Origin: Azoarcus sp. L1K30
Lineage (GTDB): Bacteria > Pseudomonadota > Gammaproteobacteria > Burkholderiales > Rhodocyclaceae
Assembly: GCF_018122735.1 (NCBI RefSeq)
Contig: NZ_JAGRRD010000001.1
Location: forward strand, 3,094,837-3,143,089
Direction of reading: 5' to 3'
Length of the DNA: 48,253 nucleotides
This document shows positions 3,369 through 36,062 of the stretch, in pieces. Under the pieces are notes generated by a model. That model did no database searches. It was not told where the DNA came from and saw only the letters and a program-made list of their open reading frames with translations. Within the stretch, counting starts at the first letter, position 1. Every line of letters starts with the position of its first letter. The position numbers and the translations under genes are program-made.

Positions 3369-4526
3369 ATGACGCGCTTTCCCCTTGCCACCCTGGCGGC
3401 AATTGCCGTGCTGGCCGCTGCCGCCACTGCCGGCGCCGGTCTGGCACCACGCACCGCCACCGCACCGATCGACCTTCTCGACACACCGTCGCCGCAAACA
3501 CCGCGAGCAACGGCCCAACTGATGACCAGCCTGGTAAGCGCAGGCACGCGCATGCTCGCCGCTGGCGCACGCGGCACCATCGTCTACTCCGACGATGGTG
3601 GCCGCCACTGGACACAGGCCGCCGTGCCGGTGGCAGTGATGCTGACCGCGCTGCACTTTCCCTCGCCCCGGAACGGTTGGGCGGTGGGTCACGACGGCGT
3701 CATCCTTCACAGCCGCGATGGTGGCGCCAGCTGGCAGCGTCAGTTCGACGGCGCAGACGCCAACACGCAGATGCTGCGCTGGGCAAAGACCCGGGTCGAC
3801 CGCGCACGGAAGACCCGCGACGACGCCTCCGGCGCTGCGCGCGATACCGCCGAGAATGCCCTCGCCGCAGCCGAAGACGGGCTCGCCGGCGTCGAGCAGG
3901 CGGTCTCGTTCGGTCCCTCGCAGCCCTTCATGAGCGTGTGGTTCCGCAACCCGCGCGAAGGTTACGCGGTGGGCGCCTTCGGCATGGCCTTCACCACCAT
4001 CGACGGCGGCGAGCACTGGACCCTGTTCGCAGACCGCCTGCCCAACCCCCATGACCTCCATCTCTACGCCATCGCCTCCCCCGCCCCCGGGGTGATGCTG
4101 ATCGCCGGCGAACGCGGGCTGATGCTGCGCTCGGACGACGCCGGCGCCACCTGGCAGGCACAGCCGGATCTCACCGACGGCGGACTCTACGGCCTGATCA
4201 GCCTGGCAGACGGTCGTACCGTGCTGGCCTATGGGTTCGACGGCAGCGTACTGCGCAGCGCCGATCTCGGCGTGAGCTGGCAAGCGGTGGAGAGTGGCAC
4301 TCGCAGCGCGCTCTATGGTGCCGCGCGGTCCGCGGACGAAGTGCTGCTGGTAGGCAACAACGGCGTCCGTCTGCGCACCAACGGTGAGCACTTCGACGTG
4401 CTGCCGGCCGGCGACGGCCGCCCGCTCACCGCCGCCGCATTCGGACCTGCCGGATGGGTGCTGGCCGGCTGGGGCGGCCTCGCCCCCGCAACCACCGGAT
4501 CGTCAGGAGCAGCAAGCCATGAATGA
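3369..4526 (+). CDS. YCF48/BNR-repeat exported protein
   Basis: A 385-residue protein with an N-terminal signal or anchor (residues 1-24) followed by at least five beta-propeller BNR-type motifs (SDDGGRHW near 74, SRDGGASW near 115, TIDGGEHW near 210, then SDDAGATW and SADLGVSW). This is the YCF48/photosystem II assembly factor-like fold. Between repeats two and three lies a charged helical insert (about residues 135-178, rich in Ala, Arg and Asp) that may be a coiled coil. It sits between the DUF1329 and RND genes and overlaps the RND start by 8 bases. A periplasmic scaffold for the transporter is an inference from context. Confidence 0.8.
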   Translation: MTRFPLATLAAIAVLAAAATAGAGLAPRTATAPIDLLDTPSPQTPRATAQLMTSLVSAGTRMLAAGARGTIVYSDDGGRHWTQAAVPVAVMLTALHFPSPRNGWAVGHDGVILHSRDGGASWQRQFDGADANTQMLRWAKTRVDRARKTRDDASGAARDTAENALAAAEDGLAGVEQAVSFGPSQPFMSVWFRNPREGYAVGAFGMAFTTIDGGEHWTLFADRLPNPHDLHLYAIASPAPGVMLIAGERGLMLRSDDAGATWQAQPDLTDGGLYGLISLADGRTVLAYGFDGSVLRSADLGVSWQAVESGTRSALYGAARSADEVLLVGNNGVRLRTNGEHFDVLPAGDGRPLTAAAFGPAGWVLAGWGGLAPATTGSSGAASHE

Positions 4527-6960: not shown

Positions 6961-6965
6961 ACACC

Positions 6966-7772
6966 ATGATCCCGATCGAAACCCGCCTGATGGACCTCAC
7001 CGGCCGCGTCGCCCTCATCACCGGCGGAGCCTCCGGCATCGGCCGCGCCACCGCCCACGCACTGGCCGCGCAAGGTGCCCGCGTCATCGTCGCCGACATC
7101 AACGAAGCCGGCGGCTGGGAGACCGCGGACGCCATCGGCGTGGCCGCCGGTTTCGTACATCTCGACGTGACGGACGAGACCGCCTGGTGCCGCGCGCTCG
7201 ACTATGTCCTCTCCACCGAAAGCCACCTCGACATCCTCGCCAACGTCGCCGGCATCGGCCTCGGTGGCGACTTCGAGGACCTGACCCTGAACGACTGGAA
7301 CCGTCTGCTGGCGGTCAATGCCACCGGCCCCTTCCTGGGTTGCAAGCACGCCATCCGCGCCATGGCCGGCAGCGGCCGCCCAGGCGCCATCGTCAATGTC
7401 GGCTCCATCGCAGCCACTCATGCCGCGCCCGATCTCGCCGGCTATTGCGCCAGCAAGGGCGCCCTGCGCATGCTGAGCAAATCGGTGGCGCTGCACTGCG
7501 CGCACAAAGGCCACCCCATCCGCTGCAATGCCATCCACCCGACCTATGTGGACAGCGAAATGCTGGACCCGATCGCCGCGCTGTACGGCGGGCGTGACGC
7601 GATGATGCAGGCGATGTCGCGGCTCGTGCCGATCGGCAGACTGGCAACGCCCGCCGACGTCGCGGCGGCCGTCGTGTTCCTCGCGTCTGACGCCGCGGCA
7701 ATGATCACCGGAACGGAGTTGTTCGTCGATGGAGGACAGACGGCGGGCATCCCACCGTCCCATTTCGGATGA
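6966..7772 (+). CDS. Short-chain dehydrogenase/reductase (SDR)
   Basis: A 268-residue classical SDR. Evidence: the cofactor motif TGGASGIG near residue 19, the NVAGIG motif, the catalytic Ser in NVGSIAA and the YCASK tetrad motif, and a C-terminal end FVDGGQTAGI. Asp in the VADIN segment after beta-2 suggests a preference for NAD(H). It begins 5 bases after the RND stop, after AAAGGAGC, so it is the last gene of the operon. It may oxidise or reduce the alcohol or ketone handled by the transport genes; the substrate is unknown. Confidence 0.85.
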   Translation: MIPIETRLMDLTGRVALITGGASGIGRATAHALAAQGARVIVADINEAGGWETADAIGVAAGFVHLDVTDETAWCRALDYVLSTESHLDILANVAGIGLGGDFEDLTLNDWNRLLAVNATGPFLGCKHAIRAMAGSGRPGAIVNVGSIAATHAAPDLAGYCASKGALRMLSKSVALHCAHKGHPIRCNAIHPTYVDSEMLDPIAALYGGRDAMMQAMSRLVPIGRLATPADVAAAVVFLASDAAAMITGTELFVDGGQTAGIPPSHFG

Positions 7773-23805: not shown

Positions 23806-24519
23806 ATGGCCAAATTCCTCAACACCAGCGCAACGAACTACTTCCTCGAAGAGCTCATCAAGAACGCCACTGATCGACTCATCCTGATCAGCCCCTTCCT
23901 GAAACTCAACGACCGCATGAAGGAACTGCTCGCCGACAAGAACCGCCTCAAGATCGATGTCCGCATCGTCTATGGCAAGAGCGAGCTGCAACCGGAAGAA
24001 ATCAACTGGCTGAAAGAGCAAACCTACATCCGCACCAGCTTCTGCAAGAACCTGCACGCCAAGTGCTACATGAACGAGGAACTGGCCATCATCACCAGCC
24101 TCAACCTGTACGAATTCAGCCAGGTGAACAACAACGAGATGGGCGTACTGATGCGCCGCGCCGACGATGCCGAGCTTTATCGCGAAACCTACGAAGAAGC
24201 GCAGCGCATCATCCGCATCAGCGACGAAGTCCGCATCTCGCTCGAACGCGTCAGCGCCGACCCGCAAACCGAAGACGATGGCAAAGCCGAGACCGAAGAG
24301 CACTCGGACAAGGGCGACAAGCTGACGACATCGAAACTGGCGCAGAAGTCAGGAATGAAGACCGCCGAGTTTCTGGATCGGCTGGTGGCCGGCGGGCTGC
24401 TGGAATTACGGGATGGAAAACATTACCTGACAGCGAAGGGTAAGGAAGCGGGCGGGGAATTCCGCATGAGTTCGCGATTTGGGCCTTATTTTCTGTGGCC
24501 TGAGGGGTTGGGGGTTTGA
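23806..24519 (+). CDS. Phospholipase D-like domain protein with C-terminal winged-helix-like region
   Basis: A 237-residue protein. Residues 1-135 form a single PLD-superfamily domain: ISPFLKLNDRM, and an HKD-like motif LHAKCYMNEE with His84, Lys86 and Glu91 in place of the usual Asp, followed by TSLN. Residues 143-172 are an acidic linker. Residues 173-237 (TTSKLAQKSGMKTAEFLDRL, LTAKGKEAGG, SSRFGPYFLWP) look like a winged helix seen at the end of some phage and mobile-element proteins. As a single-HKD protein it would dimerise for nuclease or lipase chemistry. Its base composition is lower in GC than its neighbours, consistent with acquisition. There is no signal peptide. Confidence 0.7.
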   Translation: MAKFLNTSATNYFLEELIKNATDRLILISPFLKLNDRMKELLADKNRLKIDVRIVYGKSELQPEEINWLKEQTYIRTSFCKNLHAKCYMNEELAIITSLNLYEFSQVNNNEMGVLMRRADDAELYRETYEEAQRIIRISDEVRISLERVSADPQTEDDGKAETEEHSDKGDKLTTSKLAQKSGMKTAEFLDRLVAGGLLELRDGKHYLTAKGKEAGGEFRMSSRFGPYFLWPEGLGV

Positions 24520-25257
24520 GGGGTTGAGGAAACCCGAGGCCGGCTCCTCCGCCTGCTCACCCGCCCCCTTCGTTTCGCCCCCGCCCTCGATGGTGCCCAC
24601 CGCAAGTGCCAGCGGTCCGACACTCTGGTAGCTGCCGACGCTGCCGTCTTCGCGATGGATGCGCACGATGTTGACCGCACGTGCGGCCAGCGCCGGCCAT
24701 TCCTGCGCACTTCCGTCGAGCTGCAGCGCCGCGCCGCGCGGTGGGCGCGGAATGCGCAGGCGCAGGCTGACGACCGCATCTGCCAGTTCGACGCCGGTAT
24801 CGTCGTACACACTGAATCCGGTTCCCACGCGACTTTCCACCGCGGGCAGATAGGTGAAGGGGTCGCGTGCGGCGAGGGTCTCGACATGCGCGCCCTCCAG
24901 ACTGCCGGTGACACCATCGATTTGCAGCGCCTGGGCCAGGCGTGCCTGCAGCAGCGCACCGTCGCGACGCAAGGCCTTGTCATCCACCACCAGCTGTCCG
25001 CGCTCGCCGCTGGCGAGGAAGGGCGGTGGCGCACTGCCCACTTGCCAGTCCGGCGGCAGCAAGGCCATGGCCAGCGGCATCTGCACGTACACCCGCAACA
25101 CATTCCCGTGCGGAACGACGTGGACGATGCGGGCCATGAAGTCCTGGAAGTGGGCGTGCGCCATGGCACTGAACGACAGCGCCATGGCGGCCAGCAGCCA
25201 CGCCAGCGCGCGGCCCGCGCCGCGCGCCGCACTTGCCCTTACTTGCGCGGATCCCAC
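24406..25257 (-). CDS. Exported protein of unknown function, probably 3'-truncated
   Basis: Open frame of 283 codons from GTG 25257, which overlaps the VOC gene stop by 19 bases. The N-terminus has a signal peptide (LAWLLAAMALSFSAMAHA), then a periplasmic domain starting HFQDFMARIVHVVPHGNVL. The start of this domain resembles the lumenal part of some HupE/UreJ-like membrane proteins, but the expected membrane helices are absent. The last 60 or so codons (after about VGTIEGGG) look like non-native, Pro/Arg-rich text, and their final 114 bases are antisense to the end of the PLD-like gene. The true 3' part was probably lost by rearrangement. Last gene of the leftward sigma-54 operon. Confidence 0.55.
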   Translation of the reverse strand: MGSAQVRASAARGAGRALAWLLAAMALSFSAMAHAHFQDFMARIVHVVPHGNVLRVYVQMPLAMALLPPDWQVGSAPPPFLASGERGQLVVDDKALRRDGALLQARLAQALQIDGVTGSLEGAHVETLAARDPFTYLPAVESRVGTGFSVYDDTGVELADAVVSLRLRIPRPPRGAALQLDGSAQEWPALAARAVNIVRIHREDGSVGSYQSVGPLALAVGTIEGGGETKGAGEQAEEPASGFLNPSNPQPLRPQKIRPKSRTHAEFPARFLTLRCQVMFSIP

Positions 25258-25850
25258 AGCCGCTCACTGGTGGTGAGTTCATAGGCGCGCCCGTCGGGCG
25301 CGGTGACCAGTTCCAGCTGCATGCCCCACGGCGACATGAAGTAGATCCACGTCAGGCCCTTGAGCGGTCCGTCGGTAAACAGATGCGGCTCGCCGAGGAA
25401 CTTGACGCCCTGCGCCTTCATGTTCTCCATCGCTACCTTCAGGTCATCGACATAGAAGGCGATGTGATGGCCGCCGATGTCGCTGTTCTTCGGCTCCACC
25501 TTGCGCTGGTCGGGCGAGGTGTACTCGAAGATCTCGAAGTTGGTGCCGTTGCCACAACGCACCAGATGGGCCACCGGAATCTCGGCCCGCGGATGGACGT
25601 TGAGGTTCTGCTTCATCCAGTCGTCCTTGAACGGCCCGAACGGCCCAATGGTGAAAAAGGCCTTGCAGCCCATCACACCGACGAAGAAGTCCACCGCCTG
25701 CTGCGCGTTCGGCACGGTAAAGCCGAAGTGCTCGACCCCGCGCATGCCCGGAACGCCCGCCTGTGCGGCCGGCAGCGCGGCGGCAAGGGCCAGGGTGGCA
25801 ACGCAACGGCGCAGCAGCCCGCTACTTCTGGAACGGTTTTCGAGTTTCAT
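25239..25850 (-). CDS. Exported VOC (glyoxalase/dioxygenase-fold) protein
   Basis: A 203-residue vicinal oxygen chelate protein with a signal peptide (LLRRCVATLALAAALPAAQA). Likely metal ligands are His41 in VEHFGFTV, Glu in NFEIFEY, His in GGHHIAFYV and Glu in MQLELVTAPDG, two per beta-alpha-beta-beta-beta module. VOC enzymes are usually cytosolic, so export is notable. ATG 25850 follows AAGGAA; an in-frame ATG lies upstream at 25877. It lies downstream of the GMC oxidoreductase gene and may act on its periplasmic product; the reaction is unknown. Confidence 0.82.
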   Translation of the reverse strand: MKLENRSRSSGLLRRCVATLALAAALPAAQAGVPGMRGVEHFGFTVPNAQQAVDFFVGVMGCKAFFTIGPFGPFKDDWMKQNLNVHPRAEIPVAHLVRCGNGTNFEIFEYTSPDQRKVEPKNSDIGGHHIAFYVDDLKVAMENMKAQGVKFLGEPHLFTDGPLKGLTWIYFMSPWGMQLELVTAPDGRAYELTTSERLWDPRK

Positions 25851-26029
25851 GTCAGAGATTCCTTGATGTATTTGCATGGTTGATCCCGTCCCCGCCGGTG
25901 GACTGGTGCTGAAAAAGGGCGGGGGCACCGCAAGCGGGCCCCCCAAGCACACACGCGAGGAGGAACGCGTTCATCGACTTCGTGAGCTGCGGCGCGGGGC
26001 GCACCCGGCCGCATGGGTGCGGCCAGTGT

Positions 26030-27604
26030 TCAGAGTTCGCGCCGTTTCATCGCGCCCGCGATGTATTCCGCCTGACGGATCGCCAGCGCCACGATGGTGA
26101 GCGTCGGGTTGGCCGCGCCGCTGGAGGTGAATTGGCTGCCGTCGGACACGAACAGGTTCTTGATGTCGTGGGTCTGGCCCCACTTGTTCACCACGCCGTC
26201 GCGGGCCTTCGCGCTCATGCGGTTGGTGCCCATGTTGTGGCTGGCCGGATAGGGCGGCATGTCGATCACCCGGGTGGCGCCCACCGCCTCGGACAGCTTG
26301 CGCCACTGCCCCAGGCCATGACGGCGCATGGCGGCGTCGTTGGTGTGGTCGGTCTTAGTGACGATGGGAATCGGCAGGCCGTGCTGGTCCTTCTCGGTCG
26401 GATGCAGAGTGATGCTGTTCTCTTCCTGCGCCAGATCCTCGCCGCACACCCACACGCAGCTCATGTGGTCGAACTTCTCCAGCGCGGAGCTCACCTCGCG
26501 CCCCCAGCCGCCGGGTTTCATGAAGGCCGCGGCGAAGGGCAGGTGCAGCGCCAGTCCTTCGAGGTGGTAGCCGCCGAGGAAGCCACGGTCGGGGTTATTG
26601 GGCACCTCGTCCGACACCACCGCAGCGATGTCGAAGCCGCGGTACATGTACACCGGCCCCGGGTTGATGGTCAGCGCGGCCGCCGTGGTGTGGTTCATGT
26701 AGTTGCGCCCGACCTGGCCGGAGGAGTTGGCCAGGCCGTTGGGGAACAGGCTCGAGGCGGAGTTGAGCAGCAGGCGCGGCGACTCGATCGAGTTGCCGGC
26801 CACGCATACCACCCGCGCTTTCTGCAGATGCTGCTTGCCGTCCTTGTCGGCGTAGAGCACACCGGTGGCCTTGCCGCTCTTGTCGTGCTCGATGCGCAGC
26901 ACCATGCTCTGCGGGCGCAGCTCGGCGTGGCCGGTCTTCATCGCGCGCGGAATCTCGGAGTACAGCGTCGACCACTTGGCGCCGATCTTGCAGCCCTGCA
27001 TGCAGTAGCCGATCTGCTGACAGGCCGGACGGCCGTCGTTGGGCCGGGTGTTGGAAGCCACCGGACGGACGATGTCCTTGTAGCCGATCTTGCGCGCACC
27101 GGCCTCGATCACCTTGTAGTGGTTGTTCGGCGGCATCGGCGGCAGGCCGCTGGCCTTGGTGCCGGCCACGCCCATCTTGCGCTCGGCGATGTCGTAGTAG
27201 GGTGCCAGCTCCTCGTAGCTGATCGGCCAGTCGAGCACGTTGGCGCCCGGCACATGGCCGTAGGTCGAACGCGTCTTGAACTCGTGCGCCATGAAGCGCA
27301 GCGCCAGGCCGGACCAGTGCATGGTCGAGCCGCCGACGCCCTTGACGATCCACGCCGGCAGATTGGGATAGGTCTCGGTGTGATGCCAGCCGCCGGCCGA
27401 GATGCGCTTGTCGAGCCACGAGATCTTGGCGAACATCGCCCATTCGTCGTTCTCGAAATCCTCCTGGGTGTGGTGCTTGCCCGCTTCGAGGATCACCACA
27501 TCAATGCCCTGCCGGGTCAATTCGTCGGCCAGGGTCCCGCCGCCGGCACCGGAGCCGACGATGACGACGACGCTGTTGTCGTCCTTGGAAAAGGTCTTGC
27601 TCAT
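26030..27604 (-). CDS. GMC family oxidoreductase (large flavoprotein subunit)
   Basis: A 524-residue FAD enzyme. Dinucleotide-binding motif IVGSGAGGGTLADEL near residues 15-30 with the distal acidic residue in LEAGK; GMC signatures VKGVGGSTMHWSGL and the C-terminal active-site region PASHNMGTNRM (catalytic His) and GAANPTLTIVALAIRQAEYI (Asn). It has no signal of its own. The gene 38 bases upstream encodes a Tat-exported small subunit, as in gluconate 2-dehydrogenase and fructose dehydrogenase, so it is probably carried to the periplasm in complex. It would oxidise an alcohol or polyol and pass electrons to a cytochrome. Confidence 0.9.
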   Translation of the reverse strand: MSKTFSKDDNSVVVIVGSGAGGGTLADELTRQGIDVVILEAGKHHTQEDFENDEWAMFAKISWLDKRISAGGWHHTETYPNLPAWIVKGVGGSTMHWSGLALRFMAHEFKTRSTYGHVPGANVLDWPISYEELAPYYDIAERKMGVAGTKASGLPPMPPNNHYKVIEAGARKIGYKDIVRPVASNTRPNDGRPACQQIGYCMQGCKIGAKWSTLYSEIPRAMKTGHAELRPQSMVLRIEHDKSGKATGVLYADKDGKQHLQKARVVCVAGNSIESPRLLLNSASSLFPNGLANSSGQVGRNYMNHTTAAALTINPGPVYMYRGFDIAAVVSDEVPNNPDRGFLGGYHLEGLALHLPFAAAFMKPGGWGREVSSALEKFDHMSCVWVCGEDLAQEENSITLHPTEKDQHGLPIPIVTKTDHTNDAAMRRHGLGQWRKLSEAVGATRVIDMPPYPASHNMGTNRMSAKARDGVVNKWGQTHDIKNLFVSDGSQFTSSGAANPTLTIVALAIRQAEYIAGAMKRREL

Positions 27605-27641
27605 TTGAGTTGTCTCCGTCTCTTCTTATGGAACTGCGGCC

Positions 27642-28235
27642 TCAGGCCTTGGGCAGCCAGTCGATGTCGTCGAATCCGCGATTGACGTAGCCGCCCTTCT
27701 CCCACGACGAGCCCTCCTCGCCGAACAGCGGCCAGACCGCCTTGTTGTTGTAGAAACCGGTCACCATGTCGCCCTTGATCTTCTGGAAGAAGGCGCCGTG
27801 CTCGATGGCGTACAACAGGGTCAGGCGCTCGGGTTCGGTGGACACCTCGGCATAGGGTTTGTTGAAGGCAGCCATGGCAAGGCGGTCGAGCTGGGCCACA
27901 CCGTCGACGATCAGCTTCTTGAGCGCAGGGTCCTTGGCCGCCATCGCGTCATAGGGCTCGATCGCGAGCATGTAGTAACGATCGGAGATCCTGTCGTGGG
28001 GGAAGATGTCGCGCGCCATGACCAGCAGGGTCTTGCCCGGTCCGGCGCCAAGCTCGGTGAATTCGGCGGCCAGCGCATCGCGGGCCGGCAGCATCAGACT
28101 GCCTGTCGACAGAGCTGCGACCCCGGCCGCCGCCGCGCCCGAGCCTTTGAGAAATGCACGCCGGCTGACGGTAATGCGCTTTTCCAGCACGCGCATTGCG
28201 GGCTCGGCCGGGGTATCTGGATGTTCGTTCTTCAT
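27642..28235 (-). CDS. Gluconate 2-dehydrogenase subunit 3-like small subunit, Tat-exported
   Basis: A 197-residue protein with a twin-arginine signal SRRAFLKGSGAAAAGVAALS (from residue 24) and the helical small-subunit domain of membrane-bound GMC dehydrogenases (DIFPHDRISDRYYMLAIEP, EHGAFFQKIKGDMVTGFYNN, GYVNRGFDDIDWLP). It has no cofactor motif; in the family it escorts the flavoprotein through the Tat pore and stabilises it. The usual third subunit, a triheme cytochrome c, is absent from this operon; the diheme cytochrome at 35388-36062 is the nearest candidate partner. Confidence 0.85.
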   Translation of the reverse strand: MKNEHPDTPAEPAMRVLEKRITVSRRAFLKGSGAAAAGVAALSTGSLMLPARDALAAEFTELGAGPGKTLLVMARDIFPHDRISDRYYMLAIEPYDAMAAKDPALKKLIVDGVAQLDRLAMAAFNKPYAEVSTEPERLTLLYAIEHGAFFQKIKGDMVTGFYNNKAVWPLFGEEGSSWEKGGYVNRGFDDIDWLPKA

Positions 28236-28289
28236 GATGTCTCCTCTTGTTTTGTCGCACTTGGGTGATGATCGGGGCGTCCGCGGCGC

Positions 28290-29048
28290 TCAGGCCGCCG
28301 CGGAACGGGTTGGGGTTGAGTGTGGATTCGAGAGCGGCGTCGGCAGCACGCCGAGCACATCGGTCAGCATCTGGTGCAGGGCGGACGCAAACCCTTCCAC
28401 CAGCGGCGCGGCCCCCAGTGCCTCCTCGCAGGAGGTGGTTTTCTGTTCGAGCGCATGCACGTCCGCGCCCGGTCTTCCCAGCGTGTCGCACAGCAGGTGC
28501 CAGTCGGGACGCGCCAGCAGCGTGCCCGACGTCAGCAGCACACCATGACGACGCCGCAGCTGTGCGAGCCCGACGATCTTGCGACCGCCGACCACGACTT
28601 CCCACGGCGACAGCCCGCCGAAGCAAGCCCAGCCCAGTGCAGGGTCGGCGGTGCTGCTGCGCACCTCCGCCGGTGACAGGGCATGGGCCGCAAGCCCCAT
28701 GTCACGCAACAGGCCGGCGATGAGCACCCCCAGCCAGCGGTAGCTGGTGACCGTGCCCCCCGCGAGCAGACGATGGTCGGGCGGCAGCAGGATCGAGGTG
28801 CTGAGCATCCAGGGGCCGGTCAATACCGCGCCGCCGCCGGAGCTGCGCTGTACCAGTTCGCAGGCCGCGGGACGCTGGCGCGCCTGTTTCAGCAGCGCAG
28901 CCTGCGAGCAGCCGAACACCACGCCCGCCGCGCGATAGGTCCACAAGCGCAGTTGCGGTTCGCTCACCGGCGACTCCAGCAAGGCCTCGTGCCAGCGCTG
29001 CTCGTCGGTGCTGCTGACGACGGCGAGACGGGGTTCGGCCGCAGTCAT
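28290..29048 (-). CDS. Lipoate-protein ligase A-like protein
   Basis: A 252-residue BPL/LplA family protein. Motifs: LVQRSSGGGAVLTGP (RRxxGGG-like) and the lysine-containing GGRKIVGLAQLRRRHGVLLTSGTLL. It lacks a large C-terminal accessory domain, so it may be an octanoyl/lipoyl transferase or ligase dedicated to the free lipoyl domain encoded two genes upstream. ATG 29048 overlaps the E2 stop in a TGATG arrangement, indicating translational coupling. A GTG one codon earlier is possible. Confidence 0.8.
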   Translation of the reverse strand: MTAAEPRLAVVSSTDEQRWHEALLESPVSEPQLRLWTYRAAGVVFGCSQAALLKQARQRPAACELVQRSSGGGAVLTGPWMLSTSILLPPDHRLLAGGTVTSYRWLGVLIAGLLRDMGLAAHALSPAEVRSSTADPALGWACFGGLSPWEVVVGGRKIVGLAQLRRRHGVLLTSGTLLARPDWHLLCDTLGRPGADVHALEQKTTSCEEALGAAPLVEGFASALHQMLTDVLGVLPTPLSNPHSTPTRSAAA

Positions 29049-29752
29049 CACAGATCCGCCGTCTCGATGCGGCGAGCCAGGTCGCCCAGGAACACGGCGG
29101 CCGGATAGCCATCCACTGCGCGATGGTCGAAGACCAGGTGCAAGCCCATCATCGGCGCGACGACGATCTCTCCGTCACGCACCACCGCCTTGTCGAGTAC
29201 CCGGGTCACCCCCAGGATCGCCACCTGCGGCGGGTTGATGATGGGGGAGAAGTGGTCGATGGCGGTCATGCCGAGGTTGGTCAAGGTAAAGGTGCCGCGC
29301 TGGTAATAGCCGGCACCGAGCGCACCCGCCCTGGCGCCGGCAGCGACCCGCTTCAGTTCTTCCGCCAGGGCCGGCAGCGCATGACCGTCGGTATTGCGAA
29401 TCACCGGCACCATCAGCCCATCGTCCAGACTGACGGCCACCCCGATGTTGATCTCGGGCATGAGTTCGACCGCCTTCTCGCGCATCAGCGCATTGAGTCG
29501 CGGATGCGCTCGCAGCGTGAGCGCAAGCGCACGCAGCACGAACACGGTGAGCGACACCTTGTCGCCCGCAGCGGCCATCTCACGACGCAGGGCCTCGCAG
29601 CGGCTGACATCGACCTCGACCGAGTGCGCCACGCGCGGAATCTGCCACCCCTGCGCCATGTTGCGGGCGATGGCGCCGCGCAGCCCGGAGAGCGGGATGA
29701 GCTGCGCAGCGGGTGCGTCCGCCGCCACTGCGGTGCTTGCGGGGGCGCTCAT
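29048..29752 (-). CDS. 2-oxo acid dehydrogenase E2 catalytic (acyltransferase) domain, stand-alone
   Basis: A 234-residue protein consisting only of the chloramphenicol-acetyltransferase-like E2 core: LSGLRGAIARNMAQGWQIPR, PEINIGVAVSLDDGLMVPVI, FTLTNLGMTAIDHFSPIINP and the catalytic FDHRAVDG (His and Asp). The normal N-terminal lipoyl domain and peripheral-subunit-binding domain are missing; a short Ala-rich stretch replaces them. The lipoyl domain is encoded separately, 3 bases upstream. It would take an acyl group from the lipoyl arm and transfer it to CoA. Confidence 0.88.
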   Translation of the reverse strand: MSAPASTAVAADAPAAQLIPLSGLRGAIARNMAQGWQIPRVAHSVEVDVSRCEALRREMAAAGDKVSLTVFVLRALALTLRAHPRLNALMREKAVELMPEINIGVAVSLDDGLMVPVIRNTDGHALPALAEELKRVAAGARAGALGAGYYQRGTFTLTNLGMTAIDHFSPIINPPQVAILGVTRVLDKAVVRDGEIVVAPMMGLHLVFDHRAVDGYPAAVFLGDLARRIETADL

Positions 29753-29755
29753 CGC

Positions 29756-30001
29756 TCAGCCCTCGATCACCGCAAGCACGGCGCCGCGGCCGAAGGTGTC
29801 GTCGACCGCCACCTTCAGTGCCGTCACCTTGCCACTGCAGGGCGCAAGGATCTCGTGCGTGGTCTTGACCAGCTCGGCGACCGCGACGATCTGGCCGGCG
29901 TCGACGCTGTCGCCCTCGGCCACCTGCCATTCCTGCAACAAGGCCTCGGTGCCCTCTTCCACATCCGCCCACACGGCGTCGTCCATTACGATATCGGTCA
30001 T
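29756..30001 (-). CDS. Stand-alone lipoyl (biotinyl/lipoyl-attachment) domain protein
   Basis: An 81-residue single lipoyl domain. The beta-hairpin with the attachment lysine reads AELVKTTHEILAPCSGKV (Lys near residue 46), and the N-terminal half has EWQVAEGDSVDAGQIVAVAE. The residue before Lys is Val, not the common Asp. It lies between E1 beta and the E2 core, so it is the swinging arm of this complex supplied in trans. ATG 30001 is 14 bases after the E1 beta stop. Confidence 0.88.
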   Translation of the reverse strand: MTDIVMDDAVWADVEEGTEALLQEWQVAEGDSVDAGQIVAVAELVKTTHEILAPCSGKVTALKVAVDDTFGRGAVLAVIEG

Positions 30002-30015
30002 GCTTGGTCTCGCTT

Positions 30016-31050
30016 TCAGTTGAGATTGAGTTGCATCAGTTCGCGCACGGCGGCGGCAATGCCATCCACCTGCGGGATGGCGAACTGCTCGAGCGGGCGG
30101 CTGAAGGGAATGGGCACATCGGGCACGGCCAGGCGACGGATCGGCGCCTTGAGCTTCACGCTGTCGAGGTGCTCGGCAACGATCGCCGCGATCTCACCGG
30201 ACACCCCGAAGGACAGGTAGTCCTCGTCGGCCACCAGCAGACGGCCGGTCTTGGCCACCGAGCGCAGCACCGACTCGCGGTCGAGCGGCACCAGTGTGCG
30301 CAGGTCGATGATCTCGACGTCGATGCCTTCGGCAGCGAGCGTATCGGCCGCGAGTACGGCCTTCTGCACCATCTGCGACAGGGTGACGATGGTCAGGTCG
30401 CGCCCTTCGCGCACCACCTTGGCCTCGCCGAAGGGAATGGTGTAGGGCTCGAGCGGTACGGCGTTGGTACTGCCCTCGAAGTAGGACATCCACGACAGCC
30501 CCATGATGCCCTTGTGGTACATGAACACCACCGGGTTGTCGTCGCGGATTGCCGCGGTCATCAGCCCCTTGGCATCGTAAGCGTTGGACGGCACCACCAC
30601 CTTGAGGCCGGGCACGTGGGCAAAAATGCCGTACAGGCATTGCGAATGCTGGGCCGCATCGTTGTAGCCGCCGCCGATGCCGGTGGTGATCACCACCGGG
30701 TACTTGGTGTTGCCACCGGACATGTAGGTGTTCTTGGCGAGGTGGTTGTAGATCTGGTCGAAACACACCCCGAAGAAATCCACGAACATGAGCTCGGAGA
30801 TCGGTCGCAGGCCTTCGGCAGCCGCGCCGATGGCCGCGCCCATGAAGCCGGTTTCCGAGATCGGCGTATCCATGATGCGTTCGGGGCCGAACTTGTCGAG
30901 CAGGCCGGTAGTGGCGCTGAAGATGCCGCCGTACTTGCCGACATCCTCGCCCATCACGAAGACGCGCTGATCGCGCTCCATCTCCTGGGCGACCGCCTCC
31001 GAAATGGCCTGCGCCATGCTCAGGGTGCGGACTTTGGTATCTGTTGTCAT
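30016..31050 (-). CDS. Thiamine-diphosphate 2-oxo acid/acetoin dehydrogenase E1 beta subunit
   Basis: A 344-residue transketolase-type E1 beta. Features: ISEAVAQEMERDQRVFVMGEDVGKYGG (catalytic Glu region), DTPISETGFMGAAIGAA, MFVDFFGVCFDQI, GGGYNDAAQHSQ, and the C-terminal domain VEIIDLRTLVPLDRESV. It pairs with the E1 alpha encoded 28 bases upstream in a cytosolic alpha2-beta2 enzyme that decarboxylates or cleaves an alpha-keto or acyloin substrate onto lipoyl. ATG 31050 follows GAGAGGAC. Family members act on pyruvate, branched-chain oxo acids or acetoin; which applies is not certain. Confidence 0.9.
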   Translation of the reverse strand: MTTDTKVRTLSMAQAISEAVAQEMERDQRVFVMGEDVGKYGGIFSATTGLLDKFGPERIMDTPISETGFMGAAIGAAAEGLRPISELMFVDFFGVCFDQIYNHLAKNTYMSGGNTKYPVVITTGIGGGYNDAAQHSQCLYGIFAHVPGLKVVVPSNAYDAKGLMTAAIRDDNPVVFMYHKGIMGLSWMSYFEGSTNAVPLEPYTIPFGEAKVVREGRDLTIVTLSQMVQKAVLAADTLAAEGIDVEIIDLRTLVPLDRESVLRSVAKTGRLLVADEDYLSFGVSGEIAAIVAEHLDSVKLKAPIRRLAVPDVPIPFSRPLEQFAIPQVDGIAAAVRELMQLNLN

Positions 31051-31078
31051 CGCTGTGTCCTCTCGTCGCGGGTCCGTT

Positions 31079-32089
31079 TCAGTCTGCAAACACGTGAAGC
31101 AGGGCTTCGGACGGTTCGGGGTAGGGGCTGTTGCGGCCGAAGGCATAGGCGGCCTCGACGCGCGCGCTGACTGCCTGGCGCAGGCGGGCATCGCCGGCGT
31201 CGTCGAGCAGGTCGCGCGCGCGCAGCAGGGCGCCGAGTGCCGGGATGGGATCGTGGGTGCGCAGTTCCTGCGCTTCGCCCTTGGGGCGGTAGGTTTCGGG
31301 GTCACCCTGGAAGTGGCCCAGGTAACGGTCGGTCTTGACCTCGATCAGCGTCGGGCCTTCGCCGCGGCGCGCCCTTGCCACGGCGTCGCCTGCGGCGCGG
31401 AATACCGCGACGGCATCGTTCGTCTCTACCAGCACGCCGGGCATGCCGTAACCGGCTGCGCGATCGGCATTCGATTCGATCGATGTGGAATCCTGCTTCT
31501 CGACCGAGATCCCGTACTTGTTGTCCTCGCACACGAAGATCACCGGCAGCTTCCACAGCGAGGCCAGGTTGAGCGCCTCGTGAAAGGCGCCCTGATTGGC
31601 CGCGCCTTCACCGAAGAAGCCGATCGCCACCCAGTCCTTGCCCAGTTTCTTCGCCGCCAGCGCGGCACCGCAGGCCTGCGGTGCCGAGGCGCCGACGATG
31701 CCGCTGCAGGAGAACTTCACCGCGGGATCGAACAGGTGCATGTGTCCGCCCTTGCCGCGCCCCAGGCCGGTCACCTTGCCGAACATCTCGGCGGTCATCG
31801 CGTTCAGGTCGACGTTCTTGGCAATCGCGAAGTGGTGCGGGCGGTGCGCGCCGACCACGGCGTCCTCCGCCTTCAGGTGGGCACACACACCCACCGCCAC
31901 AGGTTCCTGTCCGGCGGCGAGATGCATCTCGCCGGGCACCGGTCCGGCGCCGATATCGAAGGCCAGTCCTTTCTGAATCTTCGGGGGCAGCTTGCCCTCG
32001 AGATAGACCTTGGCCATGGTCTCCTCGTACTCGCGAATCTCCACCATCTTTTCGTACATCCACAGCAACTGTTCGGATGTCGGGTCCAT
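31079..32089 (-). CDS. Thiamine-diphosphate 2-oxo acid/acetoin dehydrogenase E1 alpha subunit
   Basis: A 336-residue E1 alpha. The ThDP-binding motif is GFFGEGAANQGAFHEALNLA with VCEDNKYGISV; GRGKGGHMHLFD and RPHHFAIAKNVDLNAMTAEM are typical of the acetoin/pyruvate group. Start ATG 32089 is preceded by GAGGAGACC. It is the first gene of the leftward operon, about 77 bases downstream of the predicted start point of a sigma-54 promoter. No E3 dihydrolipoamide dehydrogenase is encoded in the operon, so E3 must come from elsewhere. Confidence 0.9.
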   Translation of the reverse strand: MDPTSEQLLWMYEKMVEIREYEETMAKVYLEGKLPPKIQKGLAFDIGAGPVPGEMHLAAGQEPVAVGVCAHLKAEDAVVGAHRPHHFAIAKNVDLNAMTAEMFGKVTGLGRGKGGHMHLFDPAVKFSCSGIVGASAPQACGAALAAKKLGKDWVAIGFFGEGAANQGAFHEALNLASLWKLPVIFVCEDNKYGISVEKQDSTSIESNADRAAGYGMPGVLVETNDAVAVFRAAGDAVARARRGEGPTLIEVKTDRYLGHFQGDPETYRPKGEAQELRTHDPIPALGALLRARDLLDDAGDARLRQAVSARVEAAYAFGRNSPYPEPSEALLHVFAD

Positions 32090-32177
32090 TGCAGGGTCTC
32101 CTCTAAACGCCTTGTCGGTCGGCGAAACGCCGTGTGTCGCATCGGGCCGGATTGCAGCCGGCTTGCGCTTCCTCTCC

Positions 32178-32192
32178 GCAAGAGCGATGCCA
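32178..32192 (-). promoter_or_regulatory. Sigma-54 (-24/-12) promoter for the E1 alpha operon
   Basis: On the minus strand the sequence is TGGCATCGCTCTTGC, matching TGGCACG-N4-TTGC with exact spacing between the GG and GC pairs. It points toward the E1 alpha gene at 32089, with an expected start near 32166. Confidence 0.75.
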
Positions 32193-32302
32193 GGCAGCCG
32201 TGAATTTTCGCAATTCACCTTCAACAGGCTGATTTACCGGTCTTTTTCCAGCCACTGCAGAGATGGGAAAAAGGGCACGAGGCGCCGATCTGTCGCATCG
32301 GC

Positions 32303-32318
32303 TGCGACACCTGTCGCA
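32303..32318. promoter_or_regulatory. Upstream activator palindrome, site 1
   Basis: TGCGACA-CC-TGTCGCA is a perfect 7-bp inverted repeat. An additional half-site TGTCGC lies at 32291-32296. It is about 110 bp behind the leftward sigma-54 promoter, the usual position for an enhancer-binding activator. Confidence 0.65.
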
Positions 32319-32484
32319 GGCAGTGAAACGGATGTCCGCCCGCTGTGGCGCGCTCGCCACCACACCGGTCGGCCGCAATCGGGCCATTCGTCCTCGCGTC
32401 AACAACCATGGCTGCAGGGGCGGTACCCGGGACCGCAGGCGCACGACTTCCACTGTCACAGCTGTCGCCCGCGTCGCGCGCAAA

Positions 32485-32502
32485 CAGCGACAACTGTCGC
32501 TG
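32485..32502. promoter_or_regulatory. Upstream activator palindrome, site 2
   Basis: CAGCGACA-AC-TGTCGCTG is a perfect 8-bp inverted repeat with the same GCGACA-N2-TGTCGC core as site 1; another half-site is at 32463-32468. It lies about 55 bp before the rightward sigma-54 promoter. Confidence 0.65.
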
Positions 32503-32555
32503 CGCGGAGACGGTCGGTGATTTTTCAAGCAATTGTTTTTATTGCTTTATTCATA

Positions 32556-32570
32556 TGGCAGGGATTTTGC
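32556..32570 (+). promoter_or_regulatory. Sigma-54 (-24/-12) promoter for the MetA-like/PQQ dehydrogenase operon
   Basis: TGGCAGGGATTTTGC (followed by T) matches the sigma-54 consensus with correct GG-to-GC spacing. Expected transcription start is near 32582, giving a leader of about 95 bases before ATG 32677. The whole divergent gap (32090-32676, 587 bases) has no supported gene. Confidence 0.78.
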
Positions 32571-32676
32571 TGAGTGCTCGCCGTGCCTGGTCTCAACACC
32601 ATGCACCGCCTCGGCGAAGGCGCTGCAGGCCTTGTGCCCCGGCGCCGCAAAAATTCAAAAATCAGGAGACAACCCG

Positions 32677-33558
32677 ATGTACAGACTGCGTTCTTCAACA
32701 CCTGCCCTGAAGCGCACGGCCGCTGCCATGGCCGTCGTTGCCAGCCTGGGCTGCGCTGCATCCGCCCACGCCCAGGTCACCTTCGACGTGATCGGCCCCC
32801 ACGAATACGAACTGCCGGTCGGCTTCAAGCCCTTCAACGTGTTCGTGCAGTACGCCACCTTCCAGGACAGCAACAAGCTGTGGAATGCCGACGGCAAGCG
32901 GCGCAGTACGCCACGCACGGATGTCGTCGTGGGGCTGTCCAAATACGTCCGCTTCTGGTCACCGGAATCCAACCCGGACATCGGCATCGCCTACGAGATC
33001 ATCGTGCCCGAGGTGAATATCCGCAGCAGCAGCAGTCACAGCTCTGCAGGCGGCTTCGGCGATCCGCTCACCGGACCGGCGATCTGGTACAAGCCCTCGG
33101 CCAACTCCACCCTCGGCTTCCAGAGCTTCATGCAGGTTCCGGTCGGCGACTCGGATGTGGGCGGCGGCGATGTGTGGAAGAACTATTCCAGCTTGTTCTG
33201 GGACGTGCAGATGGGCAAGCTGACCTACACCGCCGACGCCGGCTTCGTGTTCTTCGGCAAATCCACCGCCGCCGATGCCACGCCCGGCACCATCTTCCAC
33301 ACCAACCACCGCGTGGGCTATGCGATAAACGATGTCGTTGAGCCCTTCATCGCGCTCGACTACGAAACGCAGTCGGCGTGGACGAACAAGGTCACGTCGG
33401 TACGCAACCCGCGCAACGACGAACTGACCGGCGGCATTGGCGTGATGTTCAAGTACTACGGCAACCAGTCCATCACCGTGCGCTATTCAGGCGGCATCGA
33501 CGGCAAGAACCGCGCCGCCACCAACAGCCTGAACCTCAAATACGCCTACGCCTGGTAA
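32677..33558 (+). CDS. MetA-pathway phenol-degradation-type outer-membrane protein
   Basis: A 293-residue exported protein with a signal peptide ending SAHA before QVTFDVIGPHEYELP. The body has antiparallel strands with GFQSFMQVPVGDSD, GKLTYTADAGFVFFG and VRYSGG, and ends in aromatic Trp (YAYAW) as outer-membrane barrels do. It resembles the MetA-pathway/phenol-degradation (SphY-like) family often found in aromatic or alkanol degradation loci, thought to be porins for hydrophobic growth substrates. ATG 32677 follows CAGGAGAC. First gene of the rightward sigma-54 operon. Confidence 0.8.
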   Translation: MYRLRSSTPALKRTAAAMAVVASLGCAASAHAQVTFDVIGPHEYELPVGFKPFNVFVQYATFQDSNKLWNADGKRRSTPRTDVVVGLSKYVRFWSPESNPDIGIAYEIIVPEVNIRSSSSHSSAGGFGDPLTGPAIWYKPSANSTLGFQSFMQVPVGDSDVGGGDVWKNYSSLFWDVQMGKLTYTADAGFVFFGKSTAADATPGTIFHTNHRVGYAINDVVEPFIALDYETQSAWTNKVTSVRNPRNDELTGGIGVMFKYYGNQSITVRYSGGIDGKNRAATNSLNLKYAYAW

Positions 33559-33649
33559 GCACCCGATCCCGCGCGACCGGCTCGATGCCGGACACCGGGA
33601 TGGCCGCCTCCCGGCACCGCCACCCGCAGCGCGAATCAATGGAGACATC

Positions 33650-35314
33650 ATGAATCTACGCACCCGCCTCGCTCCCCTCGTCCTGTCGCTGGCCTGCGGC
33701 AGCGCCATCGCCGCCACCAGTGCCAATCCCGGCTCGATCGACCCCGACAACTGGCCGCAATATCACCGCACCTCGAACGCATGGCGCTTCAGCCCGCTGA
33801 CCCAGATCAACAAGGACACGGTCAAGAACCTGAAAGTGGCCTGGATCCACCAGCCGGGCAACATCACTCACGGCCTGCAGGCCACGCCGATCGTGGTCGA
33901 CGGCGTGCTGTACTACATCTCGGCCAACAACAACGTATGGGCGGTCGATGCCGCCAGCGGCAAGACCATCTGGCACTTCGAGCCCAAACTCGACCCGCTG
34001 TCGAAGCAGGTGTTCTATGCCGCCGCCAGCCGTGGCGTAACCGTCGGTCGCGGCAAAGTCTTCGTCGGCACGCTGGACGGCCGCTTCCTGGCGCTCGACC
34101 AGAAGACCGGCGAGCAGATCTGGTCCACCCAGCTCACCGACCTCAAGACCCAGCACGGCGCCTTGTTCTCCGCCCCGCCGCAGCTGGCCGGCGATGTGCT
34201 GTTCGGCGGCACCACCGGCGGCGACCAGCCGATTGCGGGCAAGATCTACGCCGTCAATGCGGACACCGGCAAGCCGGTCTGGAACTTCGAGATCATCAAG
34301 GATGATCCTGCCAGCTGGCCGGGCGACAGCGGCAAGGTCGGTGGCGGCTCGGCATGGATGCCGGGCACCTACGATGCCGAATCGGACACGATCTACATCG
34401 GCACCTCGAATGCCGCGCCCGACTACTACACGCCGGGACGCGAGGGCGACAACAAATATACCGCCACCCTGCTCGCCCTCGACCCCAAGACCGGCAAGCT
34501 GAAATGGCATCGCCAGGAGATTCCGCACGACACCTGGGATTTCGACTCGGCCTACGAGGCGCTGGTGGTGAAGAAGGACGGCAAGGATGTGATCGTGCAT
34601 CTGAACAAGAGCGGCTTCGTCTTCGTCATGGACAAGGCCGACGGCAAGCTCGAGAACGTGTGGCAGTTCGCTGAGAATATGAATTGGGCCAAGGGCATCG
34701 ACCCCAAGACCGGGGAACTCATCGAGCCCCGCCGCCCGCAGCCGGGCAAGCGCGAACTGCTGTGCCCCAACCTGCTGGGCGCACGCAGCTGGAACCACGG
34801 CGCCTACAACCCCGGCACAGGCCTGTGGTACTCGCACGGCATGGAGGTGTGCAACGAAGTGGTGTCGGGCAAGGACGACCCGGCCAGCCTGAAGGCCATT
34901 TCAGCGCTTTCGCTGGGGATCGACGAGATCAAGCTGGTTGCGCCCCCGGGCGGCAAGAAGCCCGACGGCCGCCTCGATGCGCGCGACCCGCTCACCGGCA
35001 AGCTGAAATGGAGCGTTCGCTACGAGCTGCCGCCGTTGAGCAGCGTGCTTACCACCGCCGGCGGCCTGGTCTTCACCGGTGACATGGAAGGCCACCTGTT
35101 TGCCTACGATGCCGACAACGGCAAGCAACTGTGGCAGTTCAATGCCGGCTCCGGTGTGCGCGGCGGTCCGGTGAGCTATGCCGTCAATGGCAAGCAGTAC
35201 ATCGTCATCCCGACCGGACTGGGTTCCCATGCCCCGGGCTTCCTCGCCGGCGCCTTCCCCCAGATCAAGGATCTGCCGGGCGGTGCGGCGCTGATCGGCT
35301 TCACGCTCGAATAA
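33650..35314 (+). CDS. PQQ-dependent alcohol dehydrogenase
   Basis: A 554-residue periplasmic quinoprotein (signal to about residue 22) of the eight-bladed methanol/ethanol dehydrogenase family; tryptophan-docking repeats such as AVDAASGKTIWHF, ALDQKTGEQIW, AVNADTGKPVWNF and ALDPKTGKLKW are present. Putative metal ligands: Asn254 (GTSNAAPD), Asp297 (catalytic) and Asp299 in WDFD; the position usually held by Glu appears to be Asp192 (TGGDQ). Asp at +2 from the catalytic Asp is the mark of lanthanide-dependent relatives. The usual vicinal Cys-Cys is absent (YAAASRG near 123-129). Probably donates electrons to the cytochrome encoded next. Confidence 0.88.
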   Translation: MNLRTRLAPLVLSLACGSAIAATSANPGSIDPDNWPQYHRTSNAWRFSPLTQINKDTVKNLKVAWIHQPGNITHGLQATPIVVDGVLYYISANNNVWAVDAASGKTIWHFEPKLDPLSKQVFYAAASRGVTVGRGKVFVGTLDGRFLALDQKTGEQIWSTQLTDLKTQHGALFSAPPQLAGDVLFGGTTGGDQPIAGKIYAVNADTGKPVWNFEIIKDDPASWPGDSGKVGGGSAWMPGTYDAESDTIYIGTSNAAPDYYTPGREGDNKYTATLLALDPKTGKLKWHRQEIPHDTWDFDSAYEALVVKKDGKDVIVHLNKSGFVFVMDKADGKLENVWQFAENMNWAKGIDPKTGELIEPRRPQPGKRELLCPNLLGARSWNHGAYNPGTGLWYSHGMEVCNEVVSGKDDPASLKAISALSLGIDEIKLVAPPGGKKPDGRLDARDPLTGKLKWSVRYELPPLSSVLTTAGGLVFTGDMEGHLFAYDADNGKQLWQFNAGSGVRGGPVSYAVNGKQYIVIPTGLGSHAPGFLAGAFPQIKDLPGGAALIGFTLE

Positions 35315-35326
35315 GTACCCGGCACC

Positions 35327-35362
35327 TGTGCGGGGCGGCGCCTTCATGCGTCACCCCGCACA
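35327..35362 (+). other. Intergenic hairpin between PQQ dehydrogenase and cytochrome genes
   Basis: A 9-bp perfect stem (TGTGCGGGG / CCCCGCACA) with an 18-base loop and no T tract. It could protect the upstream mRNA or lower downstream expression without full termination. Confidence 0.4.
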
Positions 35363-35387
35363 ATCGACAATCTGAATGGAGTTGCAG

Positions 35388-36062
35388 ATGAAGCGCAATG
35401 CCACCCCCTCCCCGCGGCTGCTCGCGAGCCGCATCCTCGCGCCGGCGCTGCTGACGCTGAGCCTCGCGGCCCCGGCGTACGCGGTCGCCCCGCCGGCCGG
35501 CGCCAGTCGCAGCGAGCTGGCCGCAGGAAAGAGCCGTTTCGACAAATTGTGCGTCAGCTGTCATGGCGCCGACGGCGCGGGCAAGGAGACCTACGGCCCC
35601 CGCCTGCAGGATCGTCCGGACCTCGGCGAGGCCCTGATCCGCGAACGCATCATCAAGGGCAAGCACGGCGACCACGCCATGCCGCCATGGGGCACCGTGC
35701 TCAAGCGCGCGGAAATCGATCAGCTGGTGGCCTATGTCAAGGACTTGAAGCAGACGGCCGCGGAACGCACGAGCGGCCCCTTGTCTCCATTCGACCTCAA
35801 TGACCCCGCCCGCATCGAGACCGGCCGCAAGCGTTTTGCCAAGACCTGCGCCGGCTATTGCCACGGCCACGAAGGCATCGGCGGACGGGCGCCCGACTTC
35901 AAGGGGCGCACCGATCTCAGCGCGGAGGTCGCGTTCGCGACCATTTCCAAAGGCCGGCAGGGGGCCGACGTCATGCCCCCCTGGGGCGATGCTTTCTCCG
36001 AAGAGCAGATCTGGGAACTCGTCGCCTATCTGCAGTATCTGGGTCGTCAGACGCTGGACTGA
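35388..36062 (+). CDS. Diheme c-type cytochrome
   Basis: A 224-residue exported cytochrome with two class-I heme domains. Heme 1: CVSCH at 55-59 with a likely Met ligand in AMPPWG (Met98). Heme 2: CAGYCH at 154-159, which is CxxxCH, one residue longer than the standard motif, with Met196 in VMPPWG. Signal peptide ends near residue 32 (APAYA). As the partner gene of the PQQ dehydrogenase it probably accepts its electrons, and perhaps those of the GMC enzyme of the divergent operon. ATG 35388 is chosen over an in-frame upstream codon at 35376. Confidence 0.88.
   Translation: MKRNATPSPRLLASRILAPALLTLSLAAPAYAVAPPAGASRSELAAGKSRFDKLCVSCHGADGAGKETYGPRLQDRPDLGEALIRERIIKGKHGDHAMPPWGTVLKRAEIDQLVAYVKDLKQTAAERTSGPLSPFDLNDPARIETGRKRFAKTCAGYCHGHEGIGGRAPDFKGRTDLSAEVAFATISKGRQGADVMPPWGDAFSEEQIWELVAYLQYLGRQTLD

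Follow-up and report, generated by a model that had tools for sequence, protein, structure and literature searches.

We analysed a window of 48,253 nucleotides from the 4.98-Mb genome of Azoarcus sp. L1K30, a bacterium of soil and water (genome G000; the window is C1:3094837-3143089), in which two divergent operons, spanning window positions 24406-36062, set genes for periplasmic alcohol oxidation back to back with genes for a thiamine-dependent complex. Judging from gene content, motifs and the comparison with relatives, these operons probably form a catabolic regulon for vicinal diols and acyloins, most likely for 2,3-butanediol and acetoin. A preliminary description of this DNA had named the two operons, the single control region between them and their genes, and domain matches confirmed that all of these are present.

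The rightward operon, on the plus strand, begins with a MetA-type outer-membrane barrel (PF13557) at 32677..33558, with its start corrected to 32677, followed by a pyrroloquinoline quinone (PQQ) alcohol dehydrogenase of 554 residues at 33650..35314 (PF01011, 272 bits) and an exported cytochrome c with two heme motifs at 35376..36062. The dehydrogenase aligns with solved alcohol dehydrogenases through the propeller and the active-site region, and scores below the cut-off of the NCBI subfamily model TIGR03075 (446 versus 480 bits). Lanthanide quinoproteins carry an extra aspartate two residues past the catalytic one. The window enzyme reads WDFDS at this place, compared with WDFDG in 6zcv/6zcw, which we take to be the lanthanide enzyme PedH, and with WDYTS and WDFTA in 1kb0 and 1kv9; it is predicted to be lanthanide-dependent. 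The extra aspartate is present in 34 of the 35 PQQ dehydrogenase sequences in which the motif was read (G272 has a glycine), a count kept separate from eight Oxalobacteraceae sequences. An adjacent pair of cysteines is typical of such quinoproteins, and the window enzyme lacks it. PqqE is encoded in the genome (520 bits, cut-off 381). In the cytochrome, the first heme motif is CVSCH (CxxCH) and the second is CAGYCH (CxxxCH), not CxxCH; a similar motif, CADFCH, occurs in a small cytochrome beside a different PQQ gene at locus L040.

The leftward operon lies entirely on the minus strand. It opens with the genes for E1 alpha (31079..32089, 336 residues, its start being better placed at 32089; loop GHFQGD, similar to the GHFEGD of AcoA) and E1 beta (30016..31050, 344 residues) of the thiamine complex, followed by those for a free lipoyl-domain protein of 81 residues (29756..30001; candidate lipoyl lysine in ELVKTT) and for a bare E2 acyltransferase core of 234 residues (29048..29752; PF00198, 225 bits; motif DHRAVDG), in which the domain scan found neither a lipoyl nor a subunit-binding domain. 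Next is an LplA/LipB/LipM-type protein (28290..29051; PF21948, 57 bits, cut-off 27), which may serve the free lipoyl domain as its ligase or transferase. The LplA-type motif is GxKIxGxAQ, and this protein, besides its catalytic domain, contains the stretch GRKIVGLAQ with the acceptor lysine motif; a search of the PDB with it returned no match. A small (gamma) subunit of the Gluconate_2-dh3 family with a twin-arginine translocation (Tat) signal (27642..28235; PF13618, 25.5 bits, cut-off 23.4; SRRAFLK) precedes the catalytic subunit, a GMC flavoprotein (26030..27604) whose best solved relative is the large subunit of fructose dehydrogenase. As in fructose dehydrogenase and FAD glucose dehydrogenase, the Tat small subunit is adjacent, and the GMC protein aligns over its full length with the cluster cysteines, retaining the Cys-x5-Cys-x3-Cys of fructose dehydrogenase. 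Unlike fructose dehydrogenase, the operon includes no multiheme cytochrome subunit, the only candidate being the divergent diheme cytochrome. The operon ends with an exported VOC (glyoxalase-fold) protein at 25239..25880, which has only weak matches in the PDB, and the N-terminal half of a HupE/UreJ-type protein at 24523..25254.

The intergenic control region comprises 587 bases (32090-32676) and carries a sigma-54 type site on each side, TGGCATCGCTCTTGCG for the leftward operon (32177..32192, minus strand, 9/12) and TGGCAGGGATTTTGCT for the rightward operon (32556..32571, plus strand, 11/12). The latter is the sole 11/12 match in the window when only sites that keep the invariant GG and GC are counted. 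An operator-like palindrome, TGTCGC-N7-GCGACA, is found at 32291..32309, and additional half-sites, including GCGACA-AC-TGTCGC, at 32463..32500 on the rightward side. For comparison we used a scan of named loci, of which the best 80 were kept, counting once each of the pairs L040 (=L049), L041 (=L079) and L042 (=L076) in the promoter and half-site tallies. Of 55 distinct loci with an AcoR-type gene, 48 have a sigma-54 site of at least 10/12 upstream of E1 alpha, as do 2 of 18 without one and 7 of 10 too short to judge this gene (1.0% of shuffles), although these counts are not independent because many of the loci are close kin. At least two half-sites (TGTCGC or GCGACA) within 350 bases were detected in 43 of the 55 loci with an AcoR-type gene, 1 of the 18 without it and 5 of 9 undecidable ones, and in 6.0% of random stretches.

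The full palindrome is rare genome-wide. G000 has two copies, the second inside an unrelated gene. In ten chosen genomes this locus accounts for 10 of the 14 copies found, while a control pattern gave 2 copies; in the eight genomes with a window-type activator the figures are 13 copies and 10 at the locus, and in G001, G002, G030, G297 and G407 the locus palindrome is the only genomic copy. No copy was found at the aco loci of G009 and G256, which have ordinary acetoin-type activators. Off-locus palindromes (four in total, one of them in G256; the three others inspected) were considered as further members of the regulon and rejected: two fall within coding regions and have no sigma-54 type site reaching 9/12 within 600 bases, and the third, in G261, is intergenic by gene prediction and has sites of 9/12 at best. 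The sigma-54 regulon put forward in the preliminary description thus finds support in a site on each side, in activator-type palindromes and in the enrichment among relatives with an AcoR-type gene, and both operons appear to be under sigma-54 control, with an AcoR-type activator presumably binding at TGTCGC-N7-GCGACA.

An activator gene of this type is present in the assembly but outside the window. In a relative, G001 (locus L037), the leftward operon continues via HupE to an AcoR-type activator gene. The window protein at 24523..25254 matches residues 2-248 of the 435-residue HupE/UreJ protein of G001, and the C-terminal half (residues 245-435) is encoded at G000:C1:4116662-4117234, followed at 4117393-4119378 by the gene of an activator 85% identical to that in the G001 cluster. 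This distant half, about 1 Mb from the window, starts right past a run of 100 N (G000:C1:4116565-4116664; L145:8566-8665), and its orientation fits a turned 1-Mb stretch; the split is therefore either a 1-Mb inversion or a scaffold misjoin. The truncated exported protein of the preliminary description is indeed incomplete, but it is half of HupE/UreJ, and we rejected it as a gene of its own.

Evidence on the function of the locus comes from 249 genomes of the family, in which only the best five (PQQ, GMC) or eight (E1) candidates per genome were scored, so that second gene copies may have been missed. An orthologue of the PQQ dehydrogenase (E<=1e-170) occurs in 35 of them. It stands beside a window-type E1 in 11, at 1.4-5 kb, and beside an acetoin-type (aco) E1 in 19, of which 18 at 3-11 kb plus G315, which was assigned to this side from its fetched locus because its AcoA is cut by a contig end. 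As far as the contigs show, it is unlinked in the other five (four with E1 on another contig and one in which no E1 was found). Relatives of E1 alpha (E<=1e-70) were detected in 43 genomes, 18 of window type (71-100% identity) and 25 of acetoin type (41-46%); no family genome had both types at this threshold among its best eight candidates, and in seven window-type genomes with all candidates scored there was no second E1 above E=1e-53. In a tree of the PQQ dehydrogenases from 33 of the 35 genomes (without G021 and G402) and ten named loci, the type of the E1 partner changes five times, at least three of them forced by supported branches. In a class-wide search of 185 genomes, a PQQ match at E<=1e-150 was returned by the window genome only.

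Fifteen of the 19 acetoin-type loci were fetched, 14 of them complete; all 14 encode AcoC and LipA, 11 ThiG and 10 AcoX, and the AcoC of L043, the sole one scanned, passes the acetoin dehydrogenase E2 model (495 bits, cut-off 307). One of the family genomes, G032 (locus L047), forms a bridge between the two arrangements: it has a classical acoX-acoA-acoB-acoC-lipA operon together with PQQ, cytochrome and porin genes, and its activator is of the window type, being 58% identical over the whole protein and 52% in the sensor half, compared with 38-42% and 30-36%, respectively, in 14 other aligned acetoin-type loci. The N7 palindrome precedes acoX and also the porin-PQQ genes, with a sigma-54 site of only 9/12 before acoX. 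The same switch therefore seems to serve a true acetoin operon.

These findings are consistent with the following scheme. The diol would enter through the MetA-type barrel and be oxidized in the periplasm to an acyloin by the PQQ dehydrogenase, predicted to depend on lanthanides, with the diheme cytochrome as its electron acceptor. A second oxidation would probably fall to the GMC flavoprotein, which would be carried out of the cytosol by its Tat subunit and would act on another stereoisomer or take the acyloin to the diketone. Once in the cytosol, the acyloin would be cleaved by E1 alpha-beta on thiamine diphosphate. The acyl group would be picked up by the free lipoyl protein, which the ligase-like protein would load, and handed on by way of the bare E2 core to coenzyme A. 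The AcoR-type activator, encoded elsewhere in the assembly, would bind TGTCGC-N7-GCGACA and fire both sigma-54 promoters; the VOC and HupE proteins may have a part in the pathway as well. The coupling of periplasmic alcohol oxidation to a cytosolic thiamine complex, as suggested in the preliminary description, is supported by this sequence context. That description had left the product as an alpha-keto or acyloin compound, and the acyloin branch has gained support, as the same PQQ dehydrogenase adjoins acetoin-type operons in related genomes. The route from diol through acyloin to cleavage is thus likely, with acetoin as the likeliest acyloin; for cyclic diols and monoterpenols, also suggested previously, we found no support here.

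A comparable route, in which a quinoprotein likewise feeds acetoin to a thiamine complex, is described for Pseudomonas putida KT2440, in which, according to the accessible part of the report, PedE and PedH oxidize (2S,3S)-2,3-butanediol to acetoin, which is then cleaved by the acetoin dehydrogenase system, an (R,R)-butanediol dehydrogenase also taking part in 2,3-butanediol use (PMC8427195). There, pedE and pedH are PP2674 and PP2679, whereas the aco operon and the NAD butanediol dehydrogenase are PP0552-PP0557 (PMC8427195). Unlike in KT2440, the quinoprotein of the window lies inside the regulon, and the genome search found no close butanediol dehydrogenase. With the acetoin dehydrogenase system (acoXABC, AcoR, LipA, ThiG) the window shares a heterodimeric thiamine E1, an AcoR-type sigma-54 activator and, in related genomes, the same PQQ dehydrogenase and porin neighbours. 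The sequences indicate, however, that the complex is not a canonical AcoABC: its E1 forms a separate clade, in place of AcoC there are a lipoyl domain on a protein of its own and a bare 2-oxoacid_dh core, and ligase-like, GMC, Tat-subunit, VOC and HupE genes are added. An AcoC-type E2, with lipoyl and alpha/beta-hydrolase domains (NF011457), had no match in the window, nor did AcoX in a search that covered the window only. The layout also differs from 2-oxo acid dehydrogenase complexes, in which a single E2 chain joins lipoyl, subunit-binding and core domains, as here the core and the lipoyl domain are in separate proteins. No description of this gene set was found in open-access literature listings.

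The E2 core and E1 beta bring up another reading, in which the complex is a true 2-oxo acid dehydrogenase: PQQ oxidation of a 1,2-diol would give a 2-hydroxy acid, the GMC protein would convert it to a 2-oxo acid, and E1, the lipoyl protein and E2 would release acyl-CoA and CO2. With 351 bits, E1 beta exceeds the cut-off (321) of an NCBI model named pyruvate dehydrogenase; the E2 core is one of the 2-oxoacid_dh acyltransferases, and the small subunit belongs to the family of gluconate 2-dehydrogenase, an enzyme that oxidizes a 2-hydroxy acid. The E1 beta match is not discriminating, however, because the E1 beta of the acetoin operon of L047 passes that model at an equal score. Furthermore, E1 alpha is nearer to acetoin-type E1 (240-272 bits) than to solved pyruvate (173 bits for the best) or branched-chain E1, the activator is AcoR-type, and next to one and the same PQQ gene the complex and aco operons replace each other. 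We therefore regard a 2-oxo acid substrate as improbable.

Several observations nevertheless weigh against the assignment to butanediol and acetoin. First, a nearby PQQ gene is missing from most named loci outside the family of the window genome. Counts were made on the 68 named loci that extend 6.5 kb or more past E1 alpha on the downstream side, 12 of the 80 being shorter, and the PQQ gene occurs in 17 of these 68 (15 among the 48 whose upstream flank also reaches 8 kb), a lower bound because the upstream flanks vary in length. The preliminary description had expected linkage of the two operons across relatives, with unlinked operons counting against it. Of the 18 family genomes with a window-type E1, 11 show the linkage, as do Oxalobacteraceae loci; it fails in most lineages beyond these two groups and is not obligate. 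If the PQQ operon and the thiamine operon were unrelated and divergent by accident, such scarcity would be expected, but the paired sigma-54 sites and palindromes, along with the recurrent linkage within those two groups, make chance neighbourhood very unlikely.

A second set of observations concerns E1 alpha and the GMC flavoprotein. In the E1 alpha tree, the window-type proteins form a clade separate from AcoA (support 100/99), and HR[PSA]HH (HRPHH in the window) replaces the HRGHG of AcoA across the aligned window-type rows; the substrate may therefore differ. At L082, L097 and L099, a classical aco operon adjoins an E2-less window-type complex in one locus, which argues against simple redundancy. 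A GMC protein of at least 77% identity occurs in 15 family genomes, the same 15 whose E1 alpha has 82% identity or more to that of the window (in G355 and G247 the two are partly or wholly on separate contigs), and is absent from the three genomes with an E1 alpha of 71-73%. Paralogues of 55-68% exist in several other genomes, the acetoin-type included, but none of at least 77% was found among the best five candidates of any acetoin-type genome, so that the two systems are not equivalent. The idea that the two genome types differ because the GMC protein substitutes for butanediol dehydrogenase is unsupported and was rejected: in 33 of 34 genomes, both types among them, the butanediol dehydrogenase family went unmatched at E<=1e-40. 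In addition, no acetaldehyde dehydrogenase family member was matched among the cluster genes, and the bridge of G032 is a single genome.

Alternatively, the same layout may serve another acyloin or an alpha-diketone. The GMC protein would then make the diketone, or the acyloin of a larger diol, and the window E1 would be specialized for that product, and so would differ from AcoA and travel with GMC. The altered HRGHG motif, the coincidence of GMC and the E2-bearing form in the same 15 family genomes, and the adjoining classical and E2-less complexes agree with this, as does a relative on plasmid pR1CP1 of Rhodococcus opacus 1CP (L130), where a split complex and LipA lie beside tpdB, annotated as a tetramethylpyrazine oxygenase, and other degradation genes; a C4 acyloin-like intermediate might be formed there. 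A term search of a paper on the Rhodococcus tpd promoter found no mention of the thiamine complex. On the other side, classical acetoin operons share this PQQ dehydrogenase, and the one in G032 also has an activator and operator of the window kind, which points to acetoin itself as inducer or intermediate. We consider the specialized alternative rather unlikely and retain 2,3-butanediol and acetoin as the favoured substrates.

Across the named loci, the thiamine complex is conserved with a variable set of partners. The 68 named loci include E1 beta in 67, the lipoyl protein in 67, the ligase-like gene in 63, an AcoR-type gene in 50, the E2 core in 43, and GMC and the Tat subunit in 40 each. 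The GMC/Tat pair accompanies 40 of the 43 loci with the E2 core and none of the 25 without it, and AcoX shows 2 of 43 and 10 of 25; it is GMC, not PQQ, that constantly goes with the E2-bearing form. The 25 loci without E2 include L093, one of two pieces of a single contig, which is also without E1 beta and the lipoyl gene. The E2-less form, consisting of E1 alpha, E1 beta, the free lipoyl protein and the ligase-like gene, is seen at L068, L071, L082, L097, L099, L102, L104, L119 and others.

Haloarchaeal and alphaproteobacterial relatives placed in the E1 alpha tree group on the window side, the single haloarchaeal E1 falling in the window clade; the exact place of L130 and L132 is unsure because two long branches meet there. 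Three haloarchaeal plasmid loci combine E1 alpha and E1 beta with a free lipoyl protein, and their E1 reads HRPHH as in the window, but no LplA-like or GMC gene was recognized alongside, and the E2 core is found in one of the three. For oadhAB2 of H. volcanii, one of several haloarchaeal 2-oxoacid dehydrogenase operons that lack an assigned substrate, with 40-43% identity to acetoin dehydrogenases, a table of the original report states that "no substrate was identified" (PMC8305020, 2021). In one haloarchaeal locus, L229 (Haladaptatus halobius; 3525-4784, 5025-7311), a gene annotated as a PQQ-binding-like beta-propeller runs divergently to the E1 alpha-E1 beta-lipoyl operon.

We tentatively suggest that the window complex represents a distinct and widespread class of acyloin- or diketone-cleaving enzymes, with a free lipoyl shuttle, its own ligase and an optional E2 core, repeatedly swapped with AcoABC beside the same PQQ diol dehydrogenase, and with kin that include the orphan 2-oxoacid dehydrogenase operons of haloarchaea, whose missing substrate would then be an acyloin. 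The favoured assignment would give a concrete substrate class to conserved, unassigned thiamine complexes that now carry generic or pyruvate dehydrogenase names, and would offer a lead for the haloarchaeal operons without a reported substrate (PMC8305020). If it is correct, the role of the classical fused E2 can be filled by two proteins, a free lipoyl domain and a separate core, and one must ask how the acyl group leaves the complex in the relatives that lack E2 (25 of 68 named loci); butanediol catabolism would also gain a predicted lanthanide quinoprotein with its own sigma-54 operator.

Similar operons occur on alphaproteobacterial plasmids, with GMC and a regulator gene in Gemmobacter and Phaeobacter, the latter also having VOC and HupE, and without GMC within the stretch shown in Paracoccus and Roseibium. 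In line with butanediol as the substrate, a Cupriavidus relative has, in this order, an AcoR-type gene (39% identity), a gene resembling (R,R)-butanediol dehydrogenase (280 bits to 6ie0), two open reading frames without a known family and then E1 alpha, E1 beta, lipoyl and E2. ThiG-like, lipoyl synthase or dihydrolipoamide dehydrogenase copies adjoin the complexes in L042, L052 and acetoin-type loci, as if cofactor supply were coupled to them. Finally, in L040, L041 and L059 a different, longer PQQ dehydrogenase (~662 residues) lies near the same barrel family, and the quinoprotein itself may have been swapped there too.

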